Shown piece by piece: positions 2,302-13,779 of a stretch of 64,000 nt of DNA (the first letter of the stretch is position 1; each line of letters opens with the position of its first letter). Position numbers and translations under genes: made by a program. The notes beneath the pieces were generated by a model. It saw only the letters and a list, made by a program, of their open reading frames with translations, ran no database searches and was not told the DNA's origin. The stretch comes from Alteraurantiacibacter aquimixticola. Lineage in GTDB: Bacteria > Pseudomonadota > Alphaproteobacteria > Sphingomonadales > Sphingomonadaceae. The DNA lies in contig NZ_SSHH01000002.1 in the NCBI RefSeq assembly GCF_004965515.1, positions 702,840 to 766,839 on the forward strand. Reading direction: 5' to 3'.

Positions 2302-3236
2302 GACAGCACCATCCTATCCACGACGAGGGCAGTAAACAGGGCAAAGAGATAGAGGACCGAGAAGGCGAAGAGGCGCTTTTCGGGCTTCATCGCATCGCCT
2401 TCCTCCGCCTCGCGAAAGGCGACGGGGACGGACAGCGCCAGGAACAAGCCAGAAAGCAACAGCGCGGAAATGCCGTAGATCGCGCCCGTGCCGCCGATGG
2501 CCCAAGGGACAAGGCTGATAAGCAGAAGGGCAATCGAATAGGCGAAAATCTGGCGGCGGGTCGCCGTCTCACCCGCGACCACCGGCATCATCGGGATGCC
2601 GACCTTGGCGTAATCGGTCTTCACGAACAGGGCGAGCGCCCAGAAGTGCGGCGGGGTCCAGATGAAGATGATGGCGAAGAGCAGCACCGGCATCAGCGTG
2701 ATCTCGCCCGTCACCGCCACCCAGCCGATCAGCGGCGGGAATGCACCCGCGCCGCCACCGATGACGATGTTCTGGGGCGTGCGCGGCTTCAGCCAGATCG
2801 TGTAGATCACCGCATAGTAGATGATCGAGGCGGCAAGGATGATCGCGGCGAGCCAGTGCACGGCCAGCCCCATCACCATCACCGAGACGCCCGAAAGGAT
2901 CATGCCGAAATCGCGTGCATCCTCGCGCCGCAGCTTGCCCATGGGCAGCGGACGCTTGGCGGTGCGCTTCATTCCGGCATCGATATCGGCTTCCCACCAC
3001 TGGTTGAGCGCAGCAGCTCCGCCCGCGCCCAGCGCGATGCAGAGAATGGCCGTAAAACCGATCACCGGGTGGATGCTGCCGGGCGCGGCGAGCAGTCCGG
3101 CGAGGCCGGTAAAGACCACCAGGCTCATCACGCGCGGCTTGGTCAGCGCGTAGAAGTCGCGCCATTCGGCGGGCATCGTGGCAATTGGGGCAGCTGTGCT
3201 GGCCATGCTGGCTTGTTCGTCTTCCATCCTGTTCAT
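2298..3236 (-). CDS. ctaB: Protoheme IX farnesyltransferase (heme O synthase)
   Basis: A UbiA-superfamily prenyltransferase that adds a farnesyl group to heme b, giving heme O for the aa3 oxidase. The first aspartate-rich motif is seen as [15 protein letters not shown] and the second catalytic loop as [14 protein letters not shown]; about nine hydrophobic helices follow one another. The start is uncertain. ATG at 3236 is chosen, but ATG codons at 3227 and 3206 are possible and no strong ribosome site separates them. The conserved part begins at [11 protein letters not shown]. The stop overlaps the next small gene by four bases. Confidence 0.93.
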
Positions 3237-3286
3237 GTGGCAGGGGCGCAACCGTTGCCGGCGCGCCCCCACCCCTTGACTGTCAT

Positions 3287-3302
3287 CCCCGCAGGTGCGG
3301 GG
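3287..3302 (-). other. Hairpin between ctaD and ctaB
   Basis: CCCCGCA, two spacer bases, then TGCGGGG form a perfect 7-bp stem just after the ctaD stop. No T-run follows on the minus strand, so it looks more like an RNA-stability or processing element between cistrons than a terminator. Confidence 0.5.
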
Positions 3303-3312
3303 CGCGCTGTCA

Positions 3313-5028
3313 TCAGGCCTTGGCCGGGGCCGGGCTGATGTGATCGTCGGCCGAATGATGGTCCTCGATCACCGGCAGCGTTTCGAACTGGTGGAACGGC
3401 GGCGGGCTCGACAGCGACCATTCCAGCGTCGTCGCGCCTTCGCCCCAGTAGTTGGGTGCAGCCTTCTTACCGGCCACGAAAGCGTAGATGATGTTGATGA
3501 AGAACACCGCGACCGAGATGAGCGTGATTACATAGCCAAGGCTGGCAACATGGTTCCACTGCTCGAAAGCCGGGGTGTAGTCCGGATAGCGGCGCGCCAT
3601 GCCCTGCAGGCCCAGGAAGTGCATCGGGAAGAAGACCATGTTGACGCCGATGAAGAAGATCCAGAACTGCAGGTGCGACAGGAATTCGCTGTGCATGCGG
3701 CCGAACATCTTCGGGAACCAGTAGTACCAGCCCGCGAACATCGAGGTGACCGCACCGAGCGACAGCACGTAGTGGAAGTGCGCCACCACGTAATAGGTGT
3801 CGTGCAGGTTATCGTCGATGCCGCCATTGGCCAGCACCACGCCGGTCACGCCGCCCACGGTGAACAGGAAGATGAAGCCCATCGCCCAGACCATCGGGCT
3901 CTTGAACTCGATCGAACCGCCCCACATCGTGGCGATCCAGCTGAAGATCTTGATGCCGGTAGGCACTGCGATGACCATGGTGGCCGCGGTGAAGTACATC
4001 TTCGTGTTCACGTCGAGGCCCACGGTGTACATGTGGTGTGCCCAGACGATGAAGCCGACCACACCGATCGCAACCATGGCATAGGCCATGCCGAGATAGC
4101 CGAAGACCGGCTTCTTGGAGAAGGTCGCCACGATCTGGCTGATCATGCCGAAGCCCGGCAGGATCATGATGTAGACTTCCGGATGGCCGAAGAACCAGAA
4201 CAGGTGCTGGTAGAGCACCGGATCACCGCCACCGGCCGGATCGAAGAAGGTCGTGCCGAAGTTGCGGTCCGTCAGCAGCATGGTGATGGCAGCAGCCAGC
4301 ACCGGCAGCGCCAGCAGCAGCAGGAATGCGGTGACCAGCACCGACCACACGAACAGCGGCATTTTGTGCAGCGTCATGCCCGGGGCACGCATGTTGAAGA
4401 TGGTGGTGATGAAGTTTGTCGCGCCCAGGATCGAGCCGGCACCGGCAAGGTGCAGCGAGAAGATCGCGAAGTCGACCGCGGGACCCACGGACCCGGTCGT
4501 CGACAGCGGCGCATAGACCGTCCAGCCCGTGCCCGCGCCCAGTCCCACGCCGCCCGGCACGAAGGCCGAGAACATCAGCGAGAGGAAGCCGGCCACGGTC
4601 AGCCAGAAGGAGATGTTGTTCATGCGCGGGAAGGCCATGTCCGGCGCGCCGATCATCAGCGGCACGAACCAGTTGCCGAAACCGCCGATCATGGCGGGCA
4701 TGACCATGAAGAAGACCATGATCAGGCCGTGCGCGGTGATCAGCACGTTCCACATGTGGCCCTGCTGGTCGAACGTGCCTTCACCGCCGAGGAATTCGAC
4801 GATCTGACCCATGATCTGCAGGCCCGGTTCGGCCAGTTCCCAGCGCATCAGGCCGGAAATGCCGCCGCCGATCACACCCGCGATAATCGCGAAGATCAGG
4901 TACAGCGTACCGATGTCCTTGTGGTTGGTCGACATGAACCAGCGCGCGAAGAAGCCGGGCTTGTGATCGGCATGATCGTGCGCGTGTTCGTCGTGGTGGG
5001 CGTCAAAACCTTCTGCGGTAGTGGCCAT
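3313..5028 (-). CDS. ctaD: Cytochrome c oxidase subunit I
   Basis: The 571-residue catalytic subunit of aa3-type oxidase, which reduces oxygen to water and pumps protons. Visible ligands: H100 ([10 protein letters not shown]) and H419 (VVAHFHYVL) for low-spin heme a, H417 for heme a3, and H282, H331 and H332 for CuB. Y286 in GHPEVY would form the His-Tyr crosslink. K360 in PTGIKIFSW marks the K channel. The N-terminal 25 residues are His/Asp-rich ([12 protein letters not shown]), which could bind metal but is common in this family. It lies downstream of ctaC and upstream of ctaB. Confidence 0.98.
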
Positions 5029-5082
5029 GTTCGTCTCGCAACCTTGCTCTAATTCGTATCGTTACACTTGCGCTGGCGGAAA

Positions 5083-6066
5083 TCAGGCTTCCGCGGCAGC
5101 CTCTTCGGTTTCGGCAGCTTCCTCGGCGGGCACTTCAACCTCGACCGCGGGCTCTTCCTCGCCGCTGATGGTGCCGCCCTGGGCCAGCACCCATGCCTGG
5201 TAGTCTTCCATGGACCGCGCCTCGATCGCGATCGGCATATAGCCGTGACGCGCGCCGCACAGTTCCATGCACTGGCCGTAATAGATGCCCTCTTCCTCGA
5301 TGGTCAGCATCTTCTCGTTGATGCGGCCGGGAACGGCGTCCATCTTGAACCACAGCGAGGGGATGCCGAAGGCGTGGATCACATCCGCGCCGAAGGTCTG
5401 GATGCGCAGCGGCGTGTTCACCGGAACGACCATGCGGTTGTCCACGGCAAGCTGGACCGGCAGGTTGGCTGCCAGCGCATCAGCCTCAGGCATCATGTTC
5501 GAGATGACCTCGAACCCGCCATTGTCGACATATTCGTAGGTCCAGTACCACTGGTAGCCATTGGCCTTGATCGTGATCGCATCTTCCGGCGGCGCTTCGT
5601 ACTGCGCTGCCAGCAGGCGGATCGAGGGAACGGCAATCACCAGCAGGATGATCACGGGAATCACCGTCCAGACGACTTCGATCAGCGTGTTGTGGCTGGT
5701 CTTGGACGGAACGGGATTGGCGCCACGACGATAACGCACCACCACCCACAGCAGCAGGAACAGCACAAAGATGCTGATCACGGTGATGATCGGCATCAGG
5801 ATCGCATCATGCATCCACAGCGCATATTCGCCATTGGGCGAATATTGCTGCTGGAAGGTCAGGCCGCCCGGTTCGGGCTGGCCCTTGATCATGTCGGCAC
5901 CAAAATGCTCGAATGCGGGCGCCTCTGCAGCAGCCTCTTCCACCACGGCTTCAGCCGATTCCGCATCCTGAGCCATGGCGGCTTGCGGAGCGAACACAAG
6001 GGTGAAGGCCGCGGCAAGGATTGTCAGGATATGCAGCCGCTTGCGGGCGATCTCGCCGAAATTCAT
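5083..6066 (-). CDS. ctaC: Cytochrome c oxidase subunit II
   Basis: 327 residues: a signal peptide (about 1-32, ending APQAAMAQ), two membrane helices (about 88-111 and 129-151) and a periplasmic cupredoxin domain carrying the CuA site. CuA ligands are visible as H231, C266, E268, C270, H274 and M277 (CMELCGARHGYM), and the electron-entry tryptophans as YQWYWTYEY. The acidic, Ala/Glu-rich tail after residue 305 has no known role. ATG at 6066 was chosen over one 39 bases upstream because GGACAG precedes it and the signal peptide then has a normal length. First gene of the cox operon. Confidence 0.97.
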   Translation of the reverse strand: MNFGEIARKRLHILTILAAAFTLVFAPQAAMAQDAESAEAVVEEAAAEAPAFEHFGADMIKGQPEPGGLTFQQQYSPNGEYALWMHDAILMPIITVISIFVLFLLLWVVVRYRRGANPVPSKTSHNTLIEVVWTVIPVIILLVIAVPSIRLLAAQYEAPPEDAITIKANGYQWYWTYEYVDNGGFEVISNMMPEADALAANLPVQLAVDNRMVVPVNTPLRIQTFGADVIHAFGIPSLWFKMDAVPGRINEKMLTIEEEGIYYGQCMELCGARHGYMPIAIEARSMEDYQAWVLAQGGTISGEEEPAVEVEVPAEEAAETEEAAAEA

Positions 6067-6141
6067 CTGTCCAACGCTTTCCGTTCTGTTGCGGGCACAA
6101 GACATGGCCCATCAACCCTTCAAAAGGGCAATCCGGGCGCG

Positions 6142-6171
6142 CCTATACGCCCGCTTGCCCCATGCCTCAAG
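6142..6171 (-). promoter_or_regulatory. Candidate sigma-70-type promoter of the cox operon
   Basis: On the minus strand CTTGAG and TATAGG are separated by 18 bases, about 75 bases upstream of the ctaC start. This is the only good -35/-10 pair I see in the 190-base gap shared with pyrE. Spacing and match are acceptable but not strong. Confidence 0.35.
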
Positions 6172-6256
6172 CGCTTCTAGGGAGATTTTTCACGATTGGC
6201 GATGCGGGCTTAGGTCCGGCCACCCGACAAATCACCGAAAGGCCCGTTGAACACCG

Positions 6257-6844
6257 ATGACCGAAGACGAGGTTCTTGCCGAATTCCGCAGCAGCCAGGC
6301 GCTGCTCGAAGGCCACTTCAAACTTTCCTCCGGCCGCCACTCGGCGCATTACCTGCAATGCGCGCGCGTGCTGATGAATCCGGAGCGTGCCTCCAGGCTG
6401 GCGCTCGCCATCGCGCAGAAGATCCCGCGCGAGGTGAAGAGCAAGATCGACCTTGTCGTGTCGCCCGCCATGGGTGGCCTCATCATCGGCCATGAAATGG
6501 GCCGTGCGCTGAACAAGGATGCCATTTTCGTCGAACGCCCCACAGGCACTTTCGAGCTGCGCCGGGGATTCGCGATTCCCGAAGGCGCCAAGGTGCTGAT
6601 GGTGGAAGACGTGGTGACCACCGGCCTTTCCAGCCGCGAGGCGATGGAATGCGTGCGCGCCGAAGGCGGCGAGGTGATCGCCGAGGCGGCGCTGGTCGAT
6701 CGTTCAGCAGGATCGGTCGATCTCGGTGTGCCCTTCTTCCCGCTGGTGGCGATCAATTTCCCCACCTATGCCGAGGACGAATTGCCGGAAGATCTGGCCG
6801 CGATTCCCGTCACCAAGCCGGGCAGCCGCTCCGAAAAGAAGTGA
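6257..6844 (+). CDS. pyrE: Orotate phosphoribosyltransferase
   Basis: A 195-residue type I phosphoribosyltransferase that joins orotate and PRPP to make orotidine monophosphate in pyrimidine synthesis. The PRPP-binding motif is VLMVEDVVTTGLSSREAM (about residues 114-131). The N-terminal KLSSGRHSAHYLQC and the flexible-loop region FVERPTGTFELRRGF also match the family. It opens a tightly packed plus-strand block; its TGA is followed one base later by the pdxJ ATG. It is divergent from ctaC across a roughly 190-base gap that must hold both promoters. Confidence 0.95.
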   Translation: MTEDEVLAEFRSSQALLEGHFKLSSGRHSAHYLQCARVLMNPERASRLALAIAQKIPREVKSKIDLVVSPAMGGLIIGHEMGRALNKDAIFVERPTGTFELRRGFAIPEGAKVLMVEDVVTTGLSSREAMECVRAEGGEVIAEAALVDRSAGSVDLGVPFFPLVAINFPTYAEDELPEDLAAIPVTKPGSRSEKK

Positions 6845-6845
6845 C

Positions 6846-7601
6846 ATGAGCAGCACTCTCCGCCCCGAAAAGCTCAGGCTGGGCGTGAATATCGATCACG
6901 TCGCCACCATCCGTAATGCGCGCGGCGGGGACCATCCCGATCCTGTGCGCGCGGCGGAGATCGTCGCCCGCGTGGGCGGCGACGGCATCACGGCGCATCT
7001 GCGCGAGGATCGCCGCCATATCCGCGACGACGACCTGAAGCGAATCCAGGAAGCGACCGACCTGCCGCTCAACCTGGAAATGGCCGCGACCGAGGAAATG
7101 CTGGCCATCGCCCTCGCCCATAAGCCGCATGCCGCCTGCATCGTCCCCGAAAAGCGCGAGGAGCGCACGACCGAGGGCGGACTCGACGCGGCAGGCCAGG
7201 ACAACCAGCTGGCGCCCATCGTCACCCGGCTCACCGACGCGGGTATCCGCGTCTCACTGTTCATCGAGGCGAGCGAGCGCCAGCTCGATGCCGCATTGCG
7301 CCTGGGCGCGCCGGTGGTGGAATTCCACACCGGCGAATATGCCCATGCCCATCTCGACGGTGATCCGGCACGGATGGAACGCGAGCTGAAGCGCGTGGCG
7401 GATATGGCCGCGCTCGCCGCCAAGAACGGGATCGAGCCGCATGCCGGGCACGGCCTCACCTATGAGAATGTCCAGCCGATCGCGGCGATTCCCCAGCTGG
7501 CGGAGCTCAATATCGGCCACTACCTCGTCGGCGAGGCGGTGTTCGTCGGGCTGGAAGCTGCCGTGCTGCGGATGCGCGAACTGATGGACGCCGCGCGATG
7601 A
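6846..7601 (+). CDS. pdxJ: Pyridoxine 5'-phosphate synthase
   Basis: A 251-residue TIM-barrel enzyme that condenses 1-deoxyxylulose 5-phosphate with 3-amino-2-oxopropyl phosphate, the last ring-closing step of DXP-dependent vitamin B6 synthesis. Typical blocks are [17 protein letters not shown] near the N-terminus, [28 protein letters not shown], and [11 protein letters not shown] plus [15 protein letters not shown] near the C-terminus. The ATG at 6846 lies one base after the pyrE stop, and the frame upstream of it is just antisense-type read-through of pyrE. The stop overlaps the acpS start by four bases. Confidence 0.96.
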
Positions 7602-7999
7602 TCATCGGCATGGGCAGCGACCTCTGCAATATCGAGCGAATCCAGAATTCGCTCGACCGTTTCGGTGAGCGGTTCACGAATCGCGTCTTCACCGAGATCG
7701 AGAATGCCAAGGCCGCGCGTCGGCCGCATACGCGCGCAGGCACCTATGCCAAGCGCTTCGCCGCCAAGGAGGCGTTCAGCAAGGCAGTGGGCACGGGCTT
7801 CAAGCGCGGTGTGTTCATGCGGGATATTGGCGTTATCAACGCCCCCTCCGGCGCGCCGACTCTCCGCCTTGAAGGCGGCGCGGCAGCGCGGCTGGTGGAG
7901 CTGACGCCTGAGGGCCATGGGGTCACCATTCATCTCACCCTCACCGACGATCACCCATGGGCGCAGGCCTTCGTCATAATCGAGGCGCATCGGCTGTGA
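7598..7999 (+). CDS. acpS: Holo-[acyl-carrier-protein] synthase
   Basis: A 133-residue AcpS-type phosphopantetheinyl transferase, which loads 4'-phosphopantetheine from CoA onto acyl carrier protein. The Mg-binding aspartate sits in [13 protein letters not shown] (D9) and the second acidic ligand in [16 protein letters not shown]. The pdxJ-acpS-lepB order is common in alphaproteobacteria. The gene overlaps both neighbours: ATGA with pdxJ and GTGA with lepB, suggesting coupled translation. Confidence 0.96.
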
Positions 8000-8886
8000 G
8001 CGAGGACGACGGAAACGAGAAGAAGGGCGTCAACTGGTGGGCGGAAGCGCGCGGCCTGGTGCTGATGCTGCTGGGGGTGCTGGCCTTCCATACCTTTATC
8101 GCCAAGCCCTTCTACATCCCCTCGGGCTCCATGGTTCCGGGACTGATGGTGGGAGACCGGCTGGTGGTCTCCAAATATCCCTATGGCTGGAGCTGGGTTT
8201 CCGCGAGCTTCCATATCCTGCCGCGCGACGACTGGCGGATTGCCCCTGCCACGCCCGAATATGGCGATATCGTCATTGCCGTGCCGCCGAACCGGGCGGA
8301 GGATTACATCAAGCGCGTGGTCGCGCTGCCGGGTGACCGGATTGCGATGGTCGACGGGCAGATCATCCTCAATGGCGAGCCGGTGCCGCAAGCCGTCGAG
8401 CCGGCGGTGCGGCTGCCGACCGAAAACCAGAACATGTGCAGCAATGACGGCTTCTACGTCTCTCCCTGCCTCGACGTATTCGAACCCTATCGCGTGCGGC
8501 TGGAGGATGGCAGCGAGGTATATGAACCGCCCACCTATCGCGAAACGCTGCCCAATGGGGCGAGCTACCTCATCATCGACCACATGGATCAGTATCTCGA
8601 CAATTTCGACGAGCTGACGGTGCCAGATGGCCATGTCTTCCTGATGGGCGACAATCGCGACCATTCGGCGGACAGCCGCGCCACCGTCGACCGTAAGGGC
8701 CTGGGCGGCCCGGTTCCCATCGCCGATATCGGCGGCCGGGCGGAGTTCATCACCTTCTCGCTCGACGGGCAGGCGACGCTCAATCCCTTGACTTGGATAC
8801 CCGCTCTCAGGCCTGATCGGGCATGGACCAGCCTCAGGCCGCCGCTGGACGGGGCCGGCACAGGGGAAGAGAGCGCCGATGAATAG
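7996..8886 (+). CDS. lepB: Signal peptidase I
   Basis: A 296-residue membrane serine protease that cleaves Sec and Tat signal peptides. The catalytic Ser45 is in [11 protein letters not shown] and the catalytic Lys106 in [12 protein letters not shown]; the box [11 protein letters not shown] is also present. One N-terminal membrane anchor covers about residues 18-36. GTG at 7996 overlaps the acpS stop as GTGA and is preferred to an ATG 39 bases upstream that lies inside acpS. The long insert between the catalytic Lys and the GDNRD box is normal for alphaproteobacterial forms. Confidence 0.95.
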
Positions 8887-10036
8887 CGAGACCGACGCCG
8901 ACGACATGGAGTCGATGGCAGCCAGCCCCACGCGCATCACCAGCGCCGAATTGCGGCATGAGGTGAACCGTGCGGCGGTTTGGATCGCGATGGCCGGGCT
9001 GGTCATGCTCGCCGTTTATATCTCGCAGAGCCTGCTGGTGATCTTCGGCGCCATGGTCTTTGCCGCGATGATCGATGGCGGCGCGCGCCTGCTGGGACGC
9101 GCGCTCAATATCGGGCGCGGCTGGCGGATCGCCATCGTGCTGGTCGGTGCGGTGCTGTTCCTCGTCTGGCTGGGCTATTTCGCCGGATCGCAGATTTCGC
9201 GCGAGGCTGCGCAATTGCCCGAAATCGTCGAGGAACAGGGAACGAAGTTCTTCGCCTGGCTGCGCTCCCTGGGGTTTTCGGTGGAGATTACCGACCTGCA
9301 GGGCATGATAAGCCAGGCGATCAGCGGTTTCGGCACCGTTACCCGCGCGCTGGGCGGCTTGCTGGGCGGGCTGACCACACTGTTGCTGATCACCATTATC
9401 GGCGTTTATATCGCGATCGAGCCGCGCCTCTACGAACGCGGCGTCGCGTGGATGCTGCCCAAGGGCAAGCGCCGCGATTTCCACCTGCTCTCCGTCCGTA
9501 TGGCCTATACGATGCGCCGGCTGATGGCCGGGCGGATCGTGGGCATGGTGGTGGAAGGTGTGTTCACCTACTTCATGCTGATCGGTTATGGCGTGGTGAC
9601 CGGCGATCCGATCCCGATGCCTGCATTGCTGGCCATCCTTACCGGCCTGCTCGCCTTCGTGCCCAATATCGGCGCGGTGGTTTCGGGCGTGCTGATGGTG
9701 ATGGTGGGCTTTTCCGGCGGCACGGAGATGGGAATCTACACCATCATCGTTTATCTGCTGGTGCAGAATATCGACGGCTATATCGTGATCCCGATGATCG
9801 CCAAGAAGACGGTCGATCTCGCCCCCGCCCTGGTGCTGGGCGCACAGCTGATCATGGGCATACTGTTCGGCATACTCGGCCTGTTCCTGGCCGATCCGCT
9901 GCTGGCGATGATCAAGGTCGCGCTGGAGCGGCGCTCCGAACAGAACGAGGCAGGCGATCGCGCCGCGCTGGAAGAAGCGGACCGGCGCGCGCGCGAAGAA
10001 GTGGAGGCGGCCGCCGCGGCGGCAGGCAATGCGTAA
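8879..10036 (+). CDS. AI-2E/PerM family transporter
   Basis: A 385-residue membrane protein of the AI-2E transporter (PerM, UPF0118) family. It has two hydrophobic helices near the N-terminus, another after the WRIAIVLVG stretch, a soluble central part, then four to five C-terminal helices with the family pattern AFVPNIGAVVSG and the hydrophobic LGAQLIMGILFGILGLFLADPL split over the last helices. Members export small molecules or ions; the substrate here cannot be told from sequence. The tail is a charged Ala/Glu/Arg helix. It overlaps lepB by eight bases and the next gene by eight bases. Confidence 0.88.
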   Translation: MNSETDADDMESMAASPTRITSAELRHEVNRAAVWIAMAGLVMLAVYISQSLLVIFGAMVFAAMIDGGARLLGRALNIGRGWRIAIVLVGAVLFLVWLGYFAGSQISREAAQLPEIVEEQGTKFFAWLRSLGFSVEITDLQGMISQAISGFGTVTRALGGLLGGLTTLLLITIIGVYIAIEPRLYERGVAWMLPKGKRRDFHLLSVRMAYTMRRLMAGRIVGMVVEGVFTYFMLIGYGVVTGDPIPMPALLAILTGLLAFVPNIGAVVSGVLMVMVGFSGGTEMGIYTIIVYLLVQNIDGYIVIPMIAKKTVDLAPALVLGAQLIMGILFGILGLFLADPLLAMIKVALERRSEQNEAGDRAALEEADRRAREEVEAAAAAAGNA

Positions 10037-11183
10037 GTTCCTCTATATTATCGTCGGCGGCATATTGCTGGTGGCCGCCGTGCTCTTCACGATGCGGCTT
10101 TATAGCGAGGAGCTGACGCAGCTCGCGCTGGTGCCCAGCACCGCTTTCGTGGAGCAGGAGCAGCTGGCCGACAGCGCCTATGCCGATCCCGCCATGTGGT
10201 TCTCGCGCCCCGGCATGGGTGCGCCGAACGATCCCGCACGCTGGCAGCCGGCCTATCGCGAGGTCGAGGGGGCCGAGACACCCGAGGCACAGGCGACGCC
10301 GGACATCGCCGCGCCGCCCAAATTCGCGGTGTTCTTCGTCCACCCGACCAGCTTCTTCGACAGCCAGCGCTGGAACGCGCCGCTCGACGACGGCGAATCG
10401 CAGGAATTTGCGCGCCTGTTCGTGAGGGGGCTCGGCAGCGCCTTCAACCAGGCGAGCGAGATCTGGGCGCCGCGCTATCGCCAGGCGACTTTCGGCGCTT
10501 TCCTTTCCGGATCGGAAGAAGCGCAGCAGGCGAGCGATGCGGCCTATGCCGATGTCGCGCTTGCCTTCGACTATTTCCTCGCCGCCGTGGATGCCGATAC
10601 GCCGATCGTGCTCGCCGGGCACAGCCAGGGCGCGCTCCACGTGCTGCGCCTGCTGCGCGAGAAGGTGGCGGGGACAGAGCTGCAGGGGCGGATCGCCATG
10701 GCCTATCCGATAGGCTGGCCGATCTCGATCGAGCACGACCTGCCCGGCCTGCCCCTCCCCGCCTGCGAAGCAGCCGACCAGTCCGCCTGCATCGTCAGCT
10801 GGGCGAGCTTTGCCGACAATGGCGATCCCGCGCTGATGCTGACGAAGTACCGGCAGAGCAACGGCTTCGACGGCGAAATGCGAGGCGATAGCCCGATCCT
10901 CTGCGTCAATCCGCTGACCGGCACGGCAGGCGGCTCGGCCCCGATGGAAGCGAATCTCGGCACACTGGTTCCGAACGAGGACTTGACGAGCGGCGAACTG
11001 GTGCGCGGCGCGGTGCCGGCGCGCTGCAACGGGCAAGGCCTGCTGCTGATCGGCGATTCACCCGAAATGGGCGCGCATGTTCTGCCGCAAGACAATTACC
11101 ACGTTTACGACATCCCCCTGTTCTGGGCCAATTTGCAGGCGGACGTCGTCCGCCGGGTGAGCGCATGGCAGACCAACCACTGA
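10029..11183 (+). CDS. DUF3089 alpha/beta-hydrolase, membrane-anchored
   Basis: A 384-residue protein with one N-terminal membrane helix (about residues 4-22) and an exported alpha/beta-hydrolase domain. The nucleophile elbow is GHSQG near residue 198; FFVHPTSFF (about 101-109) and the C-terminal NYHVYDIPLFW match the DUF3089 family. The histidine of NYHVYD is the likely catalytic base. The substrate is unknown. It overlaps the permease gene by eight bases and ruvX by nineteen, so it is part of the same transcription unit. Confidence 0.82.
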   Translation: MRKFLYIIVGGILLVAAVLFTMRLYSEELTQLALVPSTAFVEQEQLADSAYADPAMWFSRPGMGAPNDPARWQPAYREVEGAETPEAQATPDIAAPPKFAVFFVHPTSFFDSQRWNAPLDDGESQEFARLFVRGLGSAFNQASEIWAPRYRQATFGAFLSGSEEAQQASDAAYADVALAFDYFLAAVDADTPIVLAGHSQGALHVLRLLREKVAGTELQGRIAMAYPIGWPISIEHDLPGLPLPACEAADQSACIVSWASFADNGDPALMLTKYRQSNGFDGEMRGDSPILCVNPLTGTAGGSAPMEANLGTLVPNEDLTSGELVRGAVPARCNGQGLLLIGDSPEMGAHVLPQDNYHVYDIPLFWANLQADVVRRVSAWQTNH

Positions 11184-11647
11184 TCACCGAAAATGCGGGC
11201 GAATTCCGCGACGCGCTGCCCGAGGGCGGCGCGCTGATCGGGCTCGACCTCGGCAGCAAGACCATCGGCACCGCCTTCTGCGATGCGGGCTGGAGCTTCG
11301 CCACGGCGGGCAAGACGCTGCCCAAGGGGAAGTTCTCCAAAGACAAGGCCGCGATCGAGGCGCTGGTCGCCGAACGCAGTGTGAAGGGCGTGGTGATCGG
11401 CCTGCCACTCAACATGGACGGAACCGCGGGGCCGCGCGCGCAGGCAAGCCGCGCCTTTGCCCGCAATCTTGCCGTGATGGGCCTGCCGGTACTGCTGTGG
11501 GACGAACGCTGGTCCACCGCCAGCGCCGAACGCGACATGATTGCGCAGGACACCAGCCGCCGCAAACGCGCCGAGCGGATCGACAGCCATGCCGCCGCCG
11601 TGATCCTGCAAGGTGCGATCGACCGGCTGGCTGGCGGGATTCTCTAG
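11165..11647 (+). CDS. ruvX: Putative pre-16S rRNA nuclease / Holliday junction resolvase (RuvX/YqgF)
   Basis: A 160-residue RNase H-fold protein. The first acidic strand is ALIGLDLGSKTIGTAF, the second region VVIGLPLNMDGTAGPR, and the C-terminal acidic motif lies in RAERIDSHAAAVILQ. YqgF proteins mature the 5' end of 16S rRNA in E. coli, and some family members are annotated as Holliday junction resolvases. Last gene of the plus-strand block; its TAG overlaps the TAG of the convergent gene within a single CTAG. Confidence 0.92.
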   Translation: MADQPLITENAGEFRDALPEGGALIGLDLGSKTIGTAFCDAGWSFATAGKTLPKGKFSKDKAAIEALVAERSVKGVVIGLPLNMDGTAGPRAQASRAFARNLAVMGLPVLLWDERWSTASAERDMIAQDTSRRKRAERIDSHAAAVILQGAIDRLAGGIL

Positions 11648-12543
11648 GCGAGTTCAAGCTCCGCCCGCCGCCGCTTCGCTTCGCCGGCAACAAGGCGGCT
11701 GCCATTACTCTCCGCGCGCCGCCATAGCGCATCACGCTCCTCGATCCCCAGCGCGCCCGCCTGCGCTTCCATCGCCACCAGCCGCATCCGCTCGCTGACA
11801 TGAGTCCGGGCGAAATTCTCGGCAAGGTCATGCGCTTCGGGGCAATCGAGGCCCACCGCCACGCGCAGGAAGATCTCGCTCCCCCCGGCGCTGATGATGC
11901 CCGAAATCTCGTCCTTCTCCGGATCGAAGCGATATTGGTCGAGCCAGCCCTGCGCCCCGCTCGAATGCATGATGTTGATCGAGACGGAGAGGCTTTCGGG
12001 CGGCAATTGCGAATGCACGTCGCGATGCGCGCGGTAATGCATCAGCTTGCCGGGATCGAGCGTGGAGCGCTCGACGAAACGCAAATTCGCCTTCTCGCCA
12101 ATCGCCCCGTCGACCGCCTCATAATCATACTCGTAATAGTCCGAGGCGTAGCCCGGCCCGAAATATCCGACGGTCAGGAAGTCGAAATTGTGGTCATGCG
12201 GCAATTCGTAGCTGAAGGCCGCATTGCCCGAGGCGCGGAAGGAGTGGTCGCCCCGGCCCGGCCAGAAATTGGCGCGCATGAAATGGTCGCGGCCCATGGG
12301 CGAGAGGGTGATGACCTGCGCGCCGTAGGCGCTGACATCGCTGCCGCCATCGACCGCATCCTTCAGCTGGTCGATCATCACATCGGCCAGGAAACCGCGA
12401 TTGTTGTGCAGCCGCCGCAGCCAGCGGGCGGCGGACATCAGGCTGTCTTCGTCGAGCGGGTTGAATCCGTCGCGCTCCAGCGCCGAGAGGCATTCGTCGA
12501 GCGAGCAGGCGGCATCGTCCTGATAATCGATCACGCGGGGCAT
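11644..12543 (-). CDS. Uncharacterised cupin-like protein, third gene of a peptide cassette
   Basis: 299 residues, no family I can name with confidence. After an N-terminal helical part there is a beta-rich core with HDHNFDFLTVGYFGPGY and, about 60 residues later, HYRAHRDVHSQLPP and LSVSINIM. The spacing of histidines and glycines resembles a cupin or 2-oxoglutarate-oxygenase-type barrel with a possible H-x-H metal site. The C-terminus is a charged helix. The ATG overlaps the stop of the upstream gene as TGATG. The core is loosely similar to the core of that gene, suggesting an old duplication. Function unknown; modification of the 53-residue peptide encoded upstream is a hypothesis. Confidence 0.7.
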   Translation of the reverse strand: MPRVIDYQDDAACSLDECLSALERDGFNPLDEDSLMSAARWLRRLHNNRGFLADVMIDQLKDAVDGGSDVSAYGAQVITLSPMGRDHFMRANFWPGRGDHSFRASGNAAFSYELPHDHNFDFLTVGYFGPGYASDYYEYDYEAVDGAIGEKANLRFVERSTLDPGKLMHYRAHRDVHSQLPPESLSVSINIMHSSGAQGWLDQYRFDPEKDEISGIISAGGSEIFLRVAVGLDCPEAHDLAENFARTHVSERMRLVAMEAQAGALGIEERDALWRRAESNGSRLVAGEAKRRRAELELA

Positions 12544-13496
12544 CAGGCATTCTCCAAGCGGGCAAGTTGCGGATGCTGTTCGACCAGCTGCGCGCGCAGC
12601 GCCCCGGCAGTATCGGACAGCGAATCGTTGGGATCGCGCGCCACTGCGCACAGGGCAGCGAAGCCCTCTGCTGTGTCGAGCGCGAGGCATTCGCGCATGG
12701 CTTGCCAGCGGAGGCCATCCTCGCCCTCGCGCCGCGCCACCTGGGCGAGCACCGGCGCGGCATCGGCGCGATCCATGCGGCCGAGCATCGCCACCATCAG
12801 CTCGCAGCGGCTACTCGCCAGTGTGCCGGCAGCCTGATGGATCAGTCTGCCCGTATCGCGGCAATATTCGCGCACCGGCTGCGGCCGTTCGGCGCTTTGC
12901 AGCAGGCGCAATGTGACGAGGCGGGTCTCCACCTCCTCCACCAGCAGCATCTCGCTCATGCAATCGAAGGCGAGGCGCGCGCCGCCTTGCAGCGCCACTT
13001 CCTCCTCGCCGAAATGCACCTGCTCACGCGGACCGCTGATCCGGACGATGCGGCCCTTGGCGTGACCCGCAAGATGGGCGTCGTAGCGCAGGTTCTCGCT
13101 GAAGCTGGCGGTGGGACAGTCATAATGTCCCGGCTCACGCGATTGCAGCAGGATCTGCGCGCGCCCGCTCTTGGCCAGCTGCAAGGTGGAAGCGCGGCCA
13201 TCGAAACTGTTGCGGAAGGGCGGATGGCCCAGCGGGTTGGCGGCGATGGCAGCGCAGAAATGCCGCACCAGCGCCTGCATCAGCGCCTCTGCCTGCCCCT
13301 GCCCGGTGAAGATCGCTTCGAGCGAAGGACAATCCTCCAGCGCGGCCCCTTCGCCGAATCGTTCGAACTCGCCCAGCGCGTTGGCGGCATCGGTTTCCGC
13401 CCGCCACGCATTCATCGCCGCTTCCATGGCGGCCTGGGCCTGGCGCTGCGGAGCACGATCGCTCCGCAGCGCCGCGATGGATGGATCGACACGCAT
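12543..13496 (-). CDS. Uncharacterised cupin-like protein with C-terminal HEAT-like helices
   Basis: 317 residues. The middle (about residues 100-215) looks like a beta barrel: ILLQSREPGHYDCPT, a basic stretch, then REQVHFGEEEV and FDCMSEMLLVEEVETRLVTL. The last about 100 residues are Ala-rich helix pairs containing LMVAMLGRMDRADAAPVL and LRWQAMRECLALD, as in HEAT-like repeats. ATG at 13496 lies 16 bases after the small peptide gene. An ATG at 13547 in the same frame would overlap that gene. The stop is coupled to the next gene (TGATG). I cannot assign a family name; the fused repeat domain would suit binding of a partner peptide or protein. Confidence 0.68.
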   Translation of the reverse strand: MRVDPSIAALRSDRAPQRQAQAAMEAAMNAWRAETDAANALGEFERFGEGAALEDCPSLEAIFTGQGQAEALMQALVRHFCAAIAANPLGHPPFRNSFDGRASTLQLAKSGRAQILLQSREPGHYDCPTASFSENLRYDAHLAGHAKGRIVRISGPREQVHFGEEEVALQGGARLAFDCMSEMLLVEEVETRLVTLRLLQSAERPQPVREYCRDTGRLIHQAAGTLASSRCELMVAMLGRMDRADAAPVLAQVARREGEDGLRWQAMRECLALDTAEGFAALCAVARDPNDSLSDTAGALRAQLVEQHPQLARLENA

Positions 13497-13512
13497 CGCT
13501 ACAACCCGGCCG

Positions 13513-13674
13513 TCAGATGATGCCGCTGCCCGGAGGCTGGGTTTCATAGACGATGGTGGCGATCACCACGATGGTGTCGTCATGCCCCGGATTGGGCGTA
13601 CGCATGGAACCGAACATGCCGGTCAGCGTGTTGAGATCGGGCAGGCTCGCCAGGTCGATCTTGGGAAGTTTCAT
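13513..13674 (-). CDS. 53-residue peptide, candidate precursor peptide of a modification cassette
   Basis: A 53-codon gene with a strong AAGGAG site eight bases before ATG, at the head of a three-gene unit. The peptide has an amphipathic N-terminal half (KLPKIDLASLPDLNTLTGMF), a small hinge (SMRTPNPGHDD), a beta-branched hydrophobic stretch (TIVVIATIVYE) and a flexible tail TQPPGSGII. It has no signal peptide and no cysteine. The two-part layout (helical leader, different C-terminal part) and its position before two cupin-like genes recall ribosomally made peptide clusters. That reading is inference. It could equally be a small structural partner of the two proteins. Confidence 0.65.
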   Translation of the reverse strand: MKLPKIDLASLPDLNTLTGMFGSMRTPNPGHDDTIVVIATIVYETQPPGSGII

Positions 13675-13749
13675 CCAGTTTTCTCCTTGTGCAGGCGAGG
13701 CATCGCGCCCCGCTGCCGCCTACCTGCCTAGAGGTGTGCGAGAGGAGAA

Positions 13750-13779
13750 ATTAAAGGATTGTAATGTGTTCTATATCAA
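13750..13779 (-). promoter_or_regulatory. Candidate promoter of the peptide cassette
   Basis: TTGATA and TTTAAT on the minus strand with an 18-base spacer, in a strikingly AT-rich patch inside otherwise GC-rich DNA. The -35 element sits at the stop of the siroheme synthase gene. The 53-residue peptide gene starts about 75 bases downstream, so the cassette probably has its own promoter. Confidence 0.45.

Follow-up and report, generated by a model that had tools for sequence, protein, structure and literature searches.

A putative RiPP-like peptide-maturation cassette joining a small acidic peptide to two predicted cupin proteins in Alteraurantiacibacter aquimixticola

What might a 53-aa peptide do together with two larger proteins that are encoded directly behind it and match no named family? 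The question is raised by a three-gene cassette in Alteraurantiacibacter aquimixticola, located in a stretch of 64,000 nucleotides (nt) that we call the window (assembly GCF_004965515.1, contig NZ_SSHH01000002.1, positions 702,840-766,839 of the forward strand). The genes lie on the minus strand in the order peptide (P0003), P0001 (317 aa) and P0002 (299 aa), with a 16-nt gap after the peptide gene and a TGATG sequence in which stop and start of the two larger genes overlap by 1 nt. A preliminary description of this DNA had placed the three open reading frames (ORFs) correctly, including gap and overlap, and had left them without a family. Searches of Pfam, NCBIfam and PHROGs found no family above cut-off for the pair or the peptides, in agreement with that label, and a search of PDB sequences gave a sole match, on P0001 at an E-value of 1, and nothing telling for pair or peptides. 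With moderate confidence, we favor a reading of the cassette as a maturation unit resembling those of ribosomally synthesized and post-translationally modified peptides (RiPPs), with P0002 oxidising the co-encoded peptide and P0001 serving as its dead partner.

The peptide, P0001 and P0002 form a unit that is retained or lost jointly. When a panel of 99 relative genomes was scored separately for each gene, P0002 was found in 34, P0001 in 33 and the peptide in 34; all three were present in 33 genomes and none in 64. Homologues of the two proteins are thus not widespread without the peptide, and the cassette idea of the preliminary description stands. A public genome collection contained 253 stretches with P0002 relatives, and the best 80 of these were used as main-family loci. 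P0001 adjoins P0002 in all 80, with a split into two frames in L052 and L057, and a profile search found the peptide beside the pair in 79, the contig ending first at L068. The main-family alignments kept 78 sequences of P0002, 75 of P0001 and 78 of the peptide. Alignments A1-A3 were made without the P0001 of L003 and L019 (two frames), the P0002 of L030 (cut) and the peptide of L029, which tblastn missed yet is visible in the DNA. L003 and L019, from the same genomes as L057 and L052, carry a frameshift of the gene or of the assembly in P0001, with peptide and P0002 intact.

Relatives of P0002 were concentrated in the family to which the window belongs. In genome samples that overlap one another, they were observed in 143 of 396 genomes from the order (every one in this family), in 4 of 385 from the class (three in the family) and in 9 of 299 from the phylum (eight in the family), and a broader P0002 profile matched 2 of 369 genomes from the class of G922. 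Plasmid records yielded P0002 matches in 2 of 72,556 cases. None of 50,697 phage records matched P0002 at E 1e-5, and a phage origin was dropped on that ground. A toxin-antitoxin system was considered too and set aside, as no observation suggests one. The two exceptions to the all-or-none pattern in the 99-genome panel look decayed. In one of them (G010, locus L200), what is left is a C-terminal stretch of P0002 covering profile positions 181-297, with ten residues that weakly match a peptide start (E 7.5e-4); the other (G056, L199) has a degenerate peptide near ruvX, the usual neighbor, with neither protein matched within 11 kb.

The peptide gene (13513-13674, minus strand) encodes an acidic product made up of an N-terminal motif (KIDLASLPDLNTLTGMFGS), a linker, a DDTIVVIATIVYE segment and the tail PPGSGII, with no cysteine. 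It is preceded by an AGGAG ribosome binding site (13683-13687, minus strand), 8 nt ahead of the ATG and aligned with relatives, as expected from the strong ribosome site noted earlier. Because the profile matched in 79 of 80 loci and substitutions are codon-like, with third positions varying most (up to 78 relatives), the sequences argue that this ORF is a real gene. Residues 1-23 (13606-13674, minus strand) form the conserved, leader-like N-terminal part and residues 33-43 (13546-13578, minus strand) a hydrophobic, beta-branched and core-like segment. The consensus across the main family is roughly MxLPKIDLxxLPDLDTLTGxFGS, a linker of variable length, DD-x-IVVxxxxVYE and a short variable tail. 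Both halves are conserved inside the main family, and ratios of nonsynonymous to synonymous change (pN/pS; uncorrected, saturated pairs excluded) were 0.38 over the 22-codon N-terminal part (75 loci of the 78 peptides) and 0.53 over the 13-codon C-terminal part (73 loci). The two-part peptide of the preliminary description is therefore visible in the alignments, with leader and core as the putative roles of its parts. A hypervariable antimicrobial peptide was considered for the window lineage and dropped, as the C-terminal segment is under purifying selection.

A wider comparison covered 36 peptides, 32 from divergent loci with more distant P0002 relatives and four from the main family. These measured 40-57 aa, 33 of the 36 were net acidic, and 11 contained cysteine. 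The N-terminal motif recurs among them and the C-terminal half varies between lineages; many show an '(I)D(I)xxLPxL'-like N-terminal stretch and a V/I/A-rich end, e.g. VFDIVIAVIVSAS or GGPLCLGVVVAVLLAL.

P0002 (11644-12543, minus strand) would be the enzyme of the unit. Its AlphaFold (AF2) model, built from the window sequence and 61 of the 78 alignment rows (62 aligned sequences), had a pLDDT of 90.0 and a pTM of 0.83. In Foldseek a mercaptosuccinate dioxygenase was the best PDB match (E 2.4e-7), and 3-mercaptopropionate dioxygenases came next. Among the 50 matches listed by VIA-align 2, 49 were cysteine, mercapto-acid, plant cysteine, cysteamine or ergothioneine dioxygenases and one was B. 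subtilis YubC; their Z-scores ran from 13.1 to 10.2 over model residues 8-219, led by 4tlf_B (Z 13.1, root-mean-square deviation 3.5, 161 residues aligned). P0002 is thus predicted to have a CDO-type cupin fold, and the model continues after the barrel into C-terminal HEAT-like helices.

Alignments place a candidate metal site within this fold. We compared A6, a profile of 26 P0002 relatives, with six CDO-like proteins, and H116, H118 and H177 fell on the three ligand histidines (pairwise E 8.5e-4), with S188, N190 and M192 on the Ser-His-Tyr (SHY) motif. A narrower P0002 alignment (A4, n=62) places the histidines identically. H116 and H118 (codons H116-D117-H118 at 12190-12198, minus strand, aligned to the CDO HxH) are each kept in 62/62 sequences of A4, 25/26 of A6 and 13/13 of A7, a set of 13 that reaches 21% identity; H177 (codon 12013-12015, minus strand, aligned to the third CDO histidine) is kept in 62/62, 24/26 and 13/13. 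Among the SHY-aligned positions, S188 is found in 62/62 of A4, N190 in 62/62 of A4, 23/26 of A6 and 12/13 of A7, and M192 in 54/62 of A4, where it is otherwise L, V or I. We take H116, H118 and H177 as a putative 3-His metal site on the strength of these alignments. A passage in PMC8050391 gives the 3-His iron site and the SHY motif as two features common to structurally characterised thiol dioxygenases, and describes the latter as aiding the known enzymes without being essential for activity. The Pfam scan, run up to E 10 through HMMER filters that discard most weak matches, gave a sub-threshold DUF693 match for P0002 (E 0.13), no PF05995 and no HEAT match. Weak PDB matches of A6 to a TFIIF helix and to phycobilin lyase HEAT helices were judged to be chance or helix-only.

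P0001 (12543-13496, minus strand) resembles P0002 in fold and differs in its site. The model, from the window and 61 of the 75 rows, had a pLDDT of 96.3 and a pTM of 0.86. The top rows in Foldseek were plant cupins (auxin-binding protein, seed globulins) interspersed with thiol dioxygenases, and the VIA-align list was headed by CDO and PCO entries at Z 10.3, aligned over residues 35-222 (12831-13394, minus strand), with other cupins within 1. The two proteins are probably old paralogues, because their profiles align pairwise at E 2.1e-4 over 144 columns. No histidine of P0001 is invariant; the best histidine columns reached 54/62 and 44/62, there is no HxH...H set, and no conserved metal site was seen, which suggests a pseudo-enzyme that is probably catalytically dead. 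The preliminary description had assigned a barrel with conserved histidines to both large proteins: both barrels are predicted, and the set of three histidines is found in P0002 but not in P0001. It had also given HEAT-like helices to one protein; the helices are there, but both models carry them. In P0001 they span residues 226-316 (12549-12821, minus strand) with a Pfam HEAT_2 match (PF13646) at E 0.016, below cut-off, and PF13646 passes its 27.7-bit cut-off in the P0001 counterparts of an Alteromonas plasmid (36.7 bits) and of L208 (31.7 bits).

The arrangement extends beyond the main family. We collected 37 divergent loci with more distant P0002 relatives (L032, L154-L189), and 36 of these show a P0001-size ORF whose end meets the start of the P0002-like gene, and a candidate small peptide just upstream; at L180 the contig end leaves no room for genes upstream. 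The P0001 profile (A2) was run on 19 divergent loci and matched 15, not L032, L154, L155 and L156; in L170-L189 a P0001-like gene means a suitably sized ORF directly upstream. A strict automatic filter (small ORF, hydrophobic tail) retained 9 of 17 divergent cassettes versus 20 of 700 control genes. The peptides of L154, L164, L168 and L169 are without a V/I-rich tail, and that of L166 requires a TTG start. Within the subclade of L164, L168 and L169 the peptides end in MPCLYPF-, MPCLFPF- or MSCLYPF-like segments, and the three P0002 histidines are kept in L164, partly lost in L168 and wholly lost in L169.

At least 15 of the 37 divergent loci have a winged-helix gene (PF00486 above cut-off) immediately after the P0002-like gene. 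This OmpR-type fourth gene was observed in L157, L163, L165-L167, L170-L176, L179, L183 and L185; a receiver domain was detected in the L163 protein only and in none of the other 14 at the Pfam thresholds used. A search of the genome of the window with one such winged-helix protein produced ten matches (25-36% identity), none of which stood out as a partner. At L159, two tandem peptide genes stand ahead of a second pair, which is followed by HlyD and ABC genes. Upstream of the peptide, L159 (4144-5276) and L163 (3618-4798) carry extracytoplasmic function (ECF) sigma factor genes and then an unrecognised gene of 205-211 aa.

The plasmid pASTE61-200 of Alteromonas stellipolaris (L204) encodes a P0002 counterpart with 44.9% identity, in the order Yip1, HlyD, MacB-type ATPase, MacB/FtsX permease, two small peptide ORFs, P0001 counterpart, P0002, ABC ATPase and ABC-2 permease. 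No other single observation supports the RiPP reading as strongly as this run, which looks like a cluster for an exported peptide. All of its genes (2761-10929) but one are annotated as hypothetical. Plasmid p1-ED002 of Vibrio sp. ED002 (L205) holds a very divergent pair (7216-8772) near a Tn3-family transposase and restriction genes; an annotated 59-aa ORF with a leader-like LPEF stretch overlaps the end of P0002 there and is doubtful as a downstream peptide. L208, from a distant genome, has a Cupin_8 gene (PF13621) upstream of its divergent pair (7573-10705), and no peptide was found when one was looked for beside that pair.

The cassette may also carry its own control element. The preliminary description had proposed an AT-rich promoter ahead of the peptide, and the region proved to hold more than a bias in composition: the sequence ATTACANNNNTTTAAYTT (13748-13765, minus strand), whose first base lies 91 nt ahead of the peptide ATG, has no second copy in the 3.43-Mb genome when one mismatch is allowed, with an expected count in the window of 0.02 at up to two. 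We scanned 160 nt upstream of the peptide in 75 of 78 related loci, three near a contig end being excluded, and found it with up to two mismatches in 70, at 84-105 nt before the ATG. At up to three mismatches it was absent from 1376 random segments and from 683 segments upstream of other called genes (mean AT content 0.36, versus 0.42 ahead of the peptides). The start was wrongly chosen in at least one of the five misses, since at L072 an exact element precedes the likely true start. A relaxed form, TTACANNNNKKTAAYT, occurred with up to two mismatches in 21 of 36 divergent loci versus 10 of 1080 control segments, having been derived from the very loci on which it was counted. A plain sigma-70 scan upstream of the peptide found no promoter. 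From these patterns we regard ATTACANNNNTTTAAYTT as a putative conserved promoter- or operator-like element of the peptide operon; it may resemble the sites of OmpR-type regulators.

How the parts would work together can be outlined as follows. P0002 would be a non-haem iron oxygenase with a thiol-dioxygenase fold and a 3-His metal site, acting on the C-terminal, beta-branched half of the peptide. P0001, as a dead paralogue, would probably pair with P0002 and, aided by HEAT-like helices from one or both proteins, would grip the '(I)D..LP.L' N-terminal half as a leader. If we were to guess at the oxidised site, it would be a carbon in the beta-branched segment or the adjacent acidic residues. 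The product of the window type may remain intracellular or serve as a signal, and those of the Alteromonas plasmid and L159 are probably exported. The preliminary description had suggested hydroxylation or another oxidation, and oxidation remains the leading reading because both barrels are predicted and P0002 has the putative 3-His site; the modification itself would follow from that reading. A cupin acting as a RiPP oxygenase has a precedent: according to PMC12257519, an ornithine residue of a RiPP is hydroxylated by PbsQ, a cupin-like protein that belongs to another subfamily and is related to a JmjC protein.

Several observations weigh against this reading. The C-terminal segment is conserved in the main family, unlike many RiPP cores, which are variable. 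Cysteine is absent from 25 of the 36 compared peptides and the SHY motif is missing from P0002 (S188-N190-M192 instead), so the chemistry known for the fold, thiol oxidation to sulfinic acid, does not transfer, and on the cysteine-free window peptide that of CDO would be impossible. By sequence, the profile link between P0002 and CDO is weak (HHalign probability 24 for A6; probability 0.2 and E 0.27 for A4), and the A6 hidden Markov model found no thiol dioxygenase among PDB sequences. The Foldseek list for P0002 also includes other cupins, with JmjC-type ribosomal hydroxylases from rank 10 (E 1.0e-5, TM <0.35). The ligand histidines are lost in one subclade (H177R in L168, all three in L169), which indicates that catalysis is dispensable there and that the pair can outlive its metal site. 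Beyond the strict filter, many of the divergent peptides rest on profile matches, looser filters and inspection by eye, a procedure open to bias. The two peptide ORFs of pASTE61-200 are unannotated, having been read from a gap; they are fairly basic, and their likeness to the sphingomonad peptides is limited to position and a hydrophobic stretch.

Some of the same evidence would suit a peptide that is never modified. It could be a permanent subunit of a P0001-P0002 complex, contributing a strand to one of the barrels or running along the HEAT-like helices, and any metal would be structural or sensing. Conservation of both peptide halves in the main family is what an interface would produce, the C-terminal segment is beta-strand-like, P0001 has no visible metal site, and L168 and L169 keep the peptide after loss of P0002 ligand histidines. 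L159 and the Alteromonas plasmid, however, combine tandem peptides beside one pair with exporter genes, which suits precursors better, and the three histidines are kept in 13/13 sequences down to 21% identity; we consider a purely structural peptide unlikely. A small-molecule role for P0002, with the peptide merely regulating or anchoring it, could be drawn from the best structural matches, which besides ADO and PCO are titled for small thiols. We give it very little credence, as the SHY motif is replaced, P0002 strictly co-occurs with P0001 and the peptide, and tandem peptides are linked to exporters in two relatives.

An oxygen or redox switch is a function for the maturation reading rather than its opposite: P0002 would oxidise the peptide solely in the presence of oxygen, and the state of the peptide would feed a winged-helix regulator acting on the upstream element. 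The downstream winged-helix gene of the divergent loci and the conserved element, unique in the genome, fit such a circuit. PCO serves as an oxygen sensor. ADO, of the same fold, oxidises protein N-terminal cysteines and is named as an oxygen sensor in the title of PMC8503633. This switch seems improbable to us all the same, for no regulator gene adjoins the window-type cassette, the search of its genome with one winged-helix protein singled out no partner, the upstream element is a putative regulator site, and the window peptide has no cysteine. Rather unlikely as well is a more specific form of the maturation reading, a new class of ribosomal-peptide system. Here an enzyme of the thiol-dioxygenase fold with an altered site (Asn at the SHY His), together with its dead twin, would oxidise residues other than cysteine, in the beta-branched segment or the acidic residues next to it, in a peptide dedicated to the system. 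The outcome would be an intracellular signal that depends on oxygen, not an exported antibiotic, wired through its own promoter element in sphingomonads and through the winged-helix protein of the operon in relatives.

Set beside known systems, the unit shares part of each. With the thiol dioxygenases (CDO PF05995, 3-mercaptopropionate and mercaptosuccinate, ADO/PCO and ergothioneine enzymes) P0002 has in common the predicted fold over residues 8-219 (Z 10-13), N-terminal helices included, and an HxH...H set at matching alignment positions; it differs by S-N-M in place of SHY, by its extra C-terminal helices, by the missing PF05995 match and by being encoded with a pseudo-enzyme paralogue and a peptide. 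A short precursor-like peptide gene ahead of putative modifying-protein genes recalls RiPP cassettes, as do the tandem peptides with ABC/HlyD exporter genes of L159 and the Alteromonas plasmid. Unlike such cassettes, the one in the window shows neither an ABC or HlyD exporter nor a transcription factor in its eight tested flanking genes, and P0002 belongs to a different oxygenase subfamily from PbsQ (PMC12257519). Both models have C-terminal helices like those of HEAT-repeat proteins (PF13646), but here the helices are fused to cupins of the thiol-dioxygenase type, with window P0001 below cut-off and window P0002 unmatched. An MNIO system was dropped after the Pfam scan up to E 10 gave no DUF692 match for P0001 or P0002, and a lasso or proteusin system was dropped as the scan showed no domain typical of such systems. 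We found no description of this three-gene unit in the open-access literature, a search that lay outside most subscription papers and bioRxiv preprints.

The surroundings of the cassette were read from eight flanking genes. By Pfam, one flank (plus strand) encodes RuvX, a DUF3089 protein, an AI-2E family transporter and a signal peptidase, and the other a siroheme-synthase-type protein, a decarboxylase that we take to be of the lysA type, argininosuccinate lyase and a redoxin. The AI-2E family transporter and the signal peptidase lie 2-5 kb from the cassette on the opposite strand, amid housekeeping genes. At 72 of the 80 main-family loci ruvX was inside the retrieved flank.

If the maturation reading is true, it would give a function to a unit that is unnamed in Pfam and NCBIfam and whose P0002 gene is carried by 143 of the 396 genomes sampled from the order, and would define a class of RiPP-like systems that may escape mining tools based on known enzymes. 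Should the peptide be the substrate, a fold that oxidises cysteine and small thiols would gain a new use on cysteine-free ribosomal peptides, and the natural change from SHY to S-N-M would ask directly what the SHY motif does. The cassette would then represent a new kind of bacterial peptide-processing unit.

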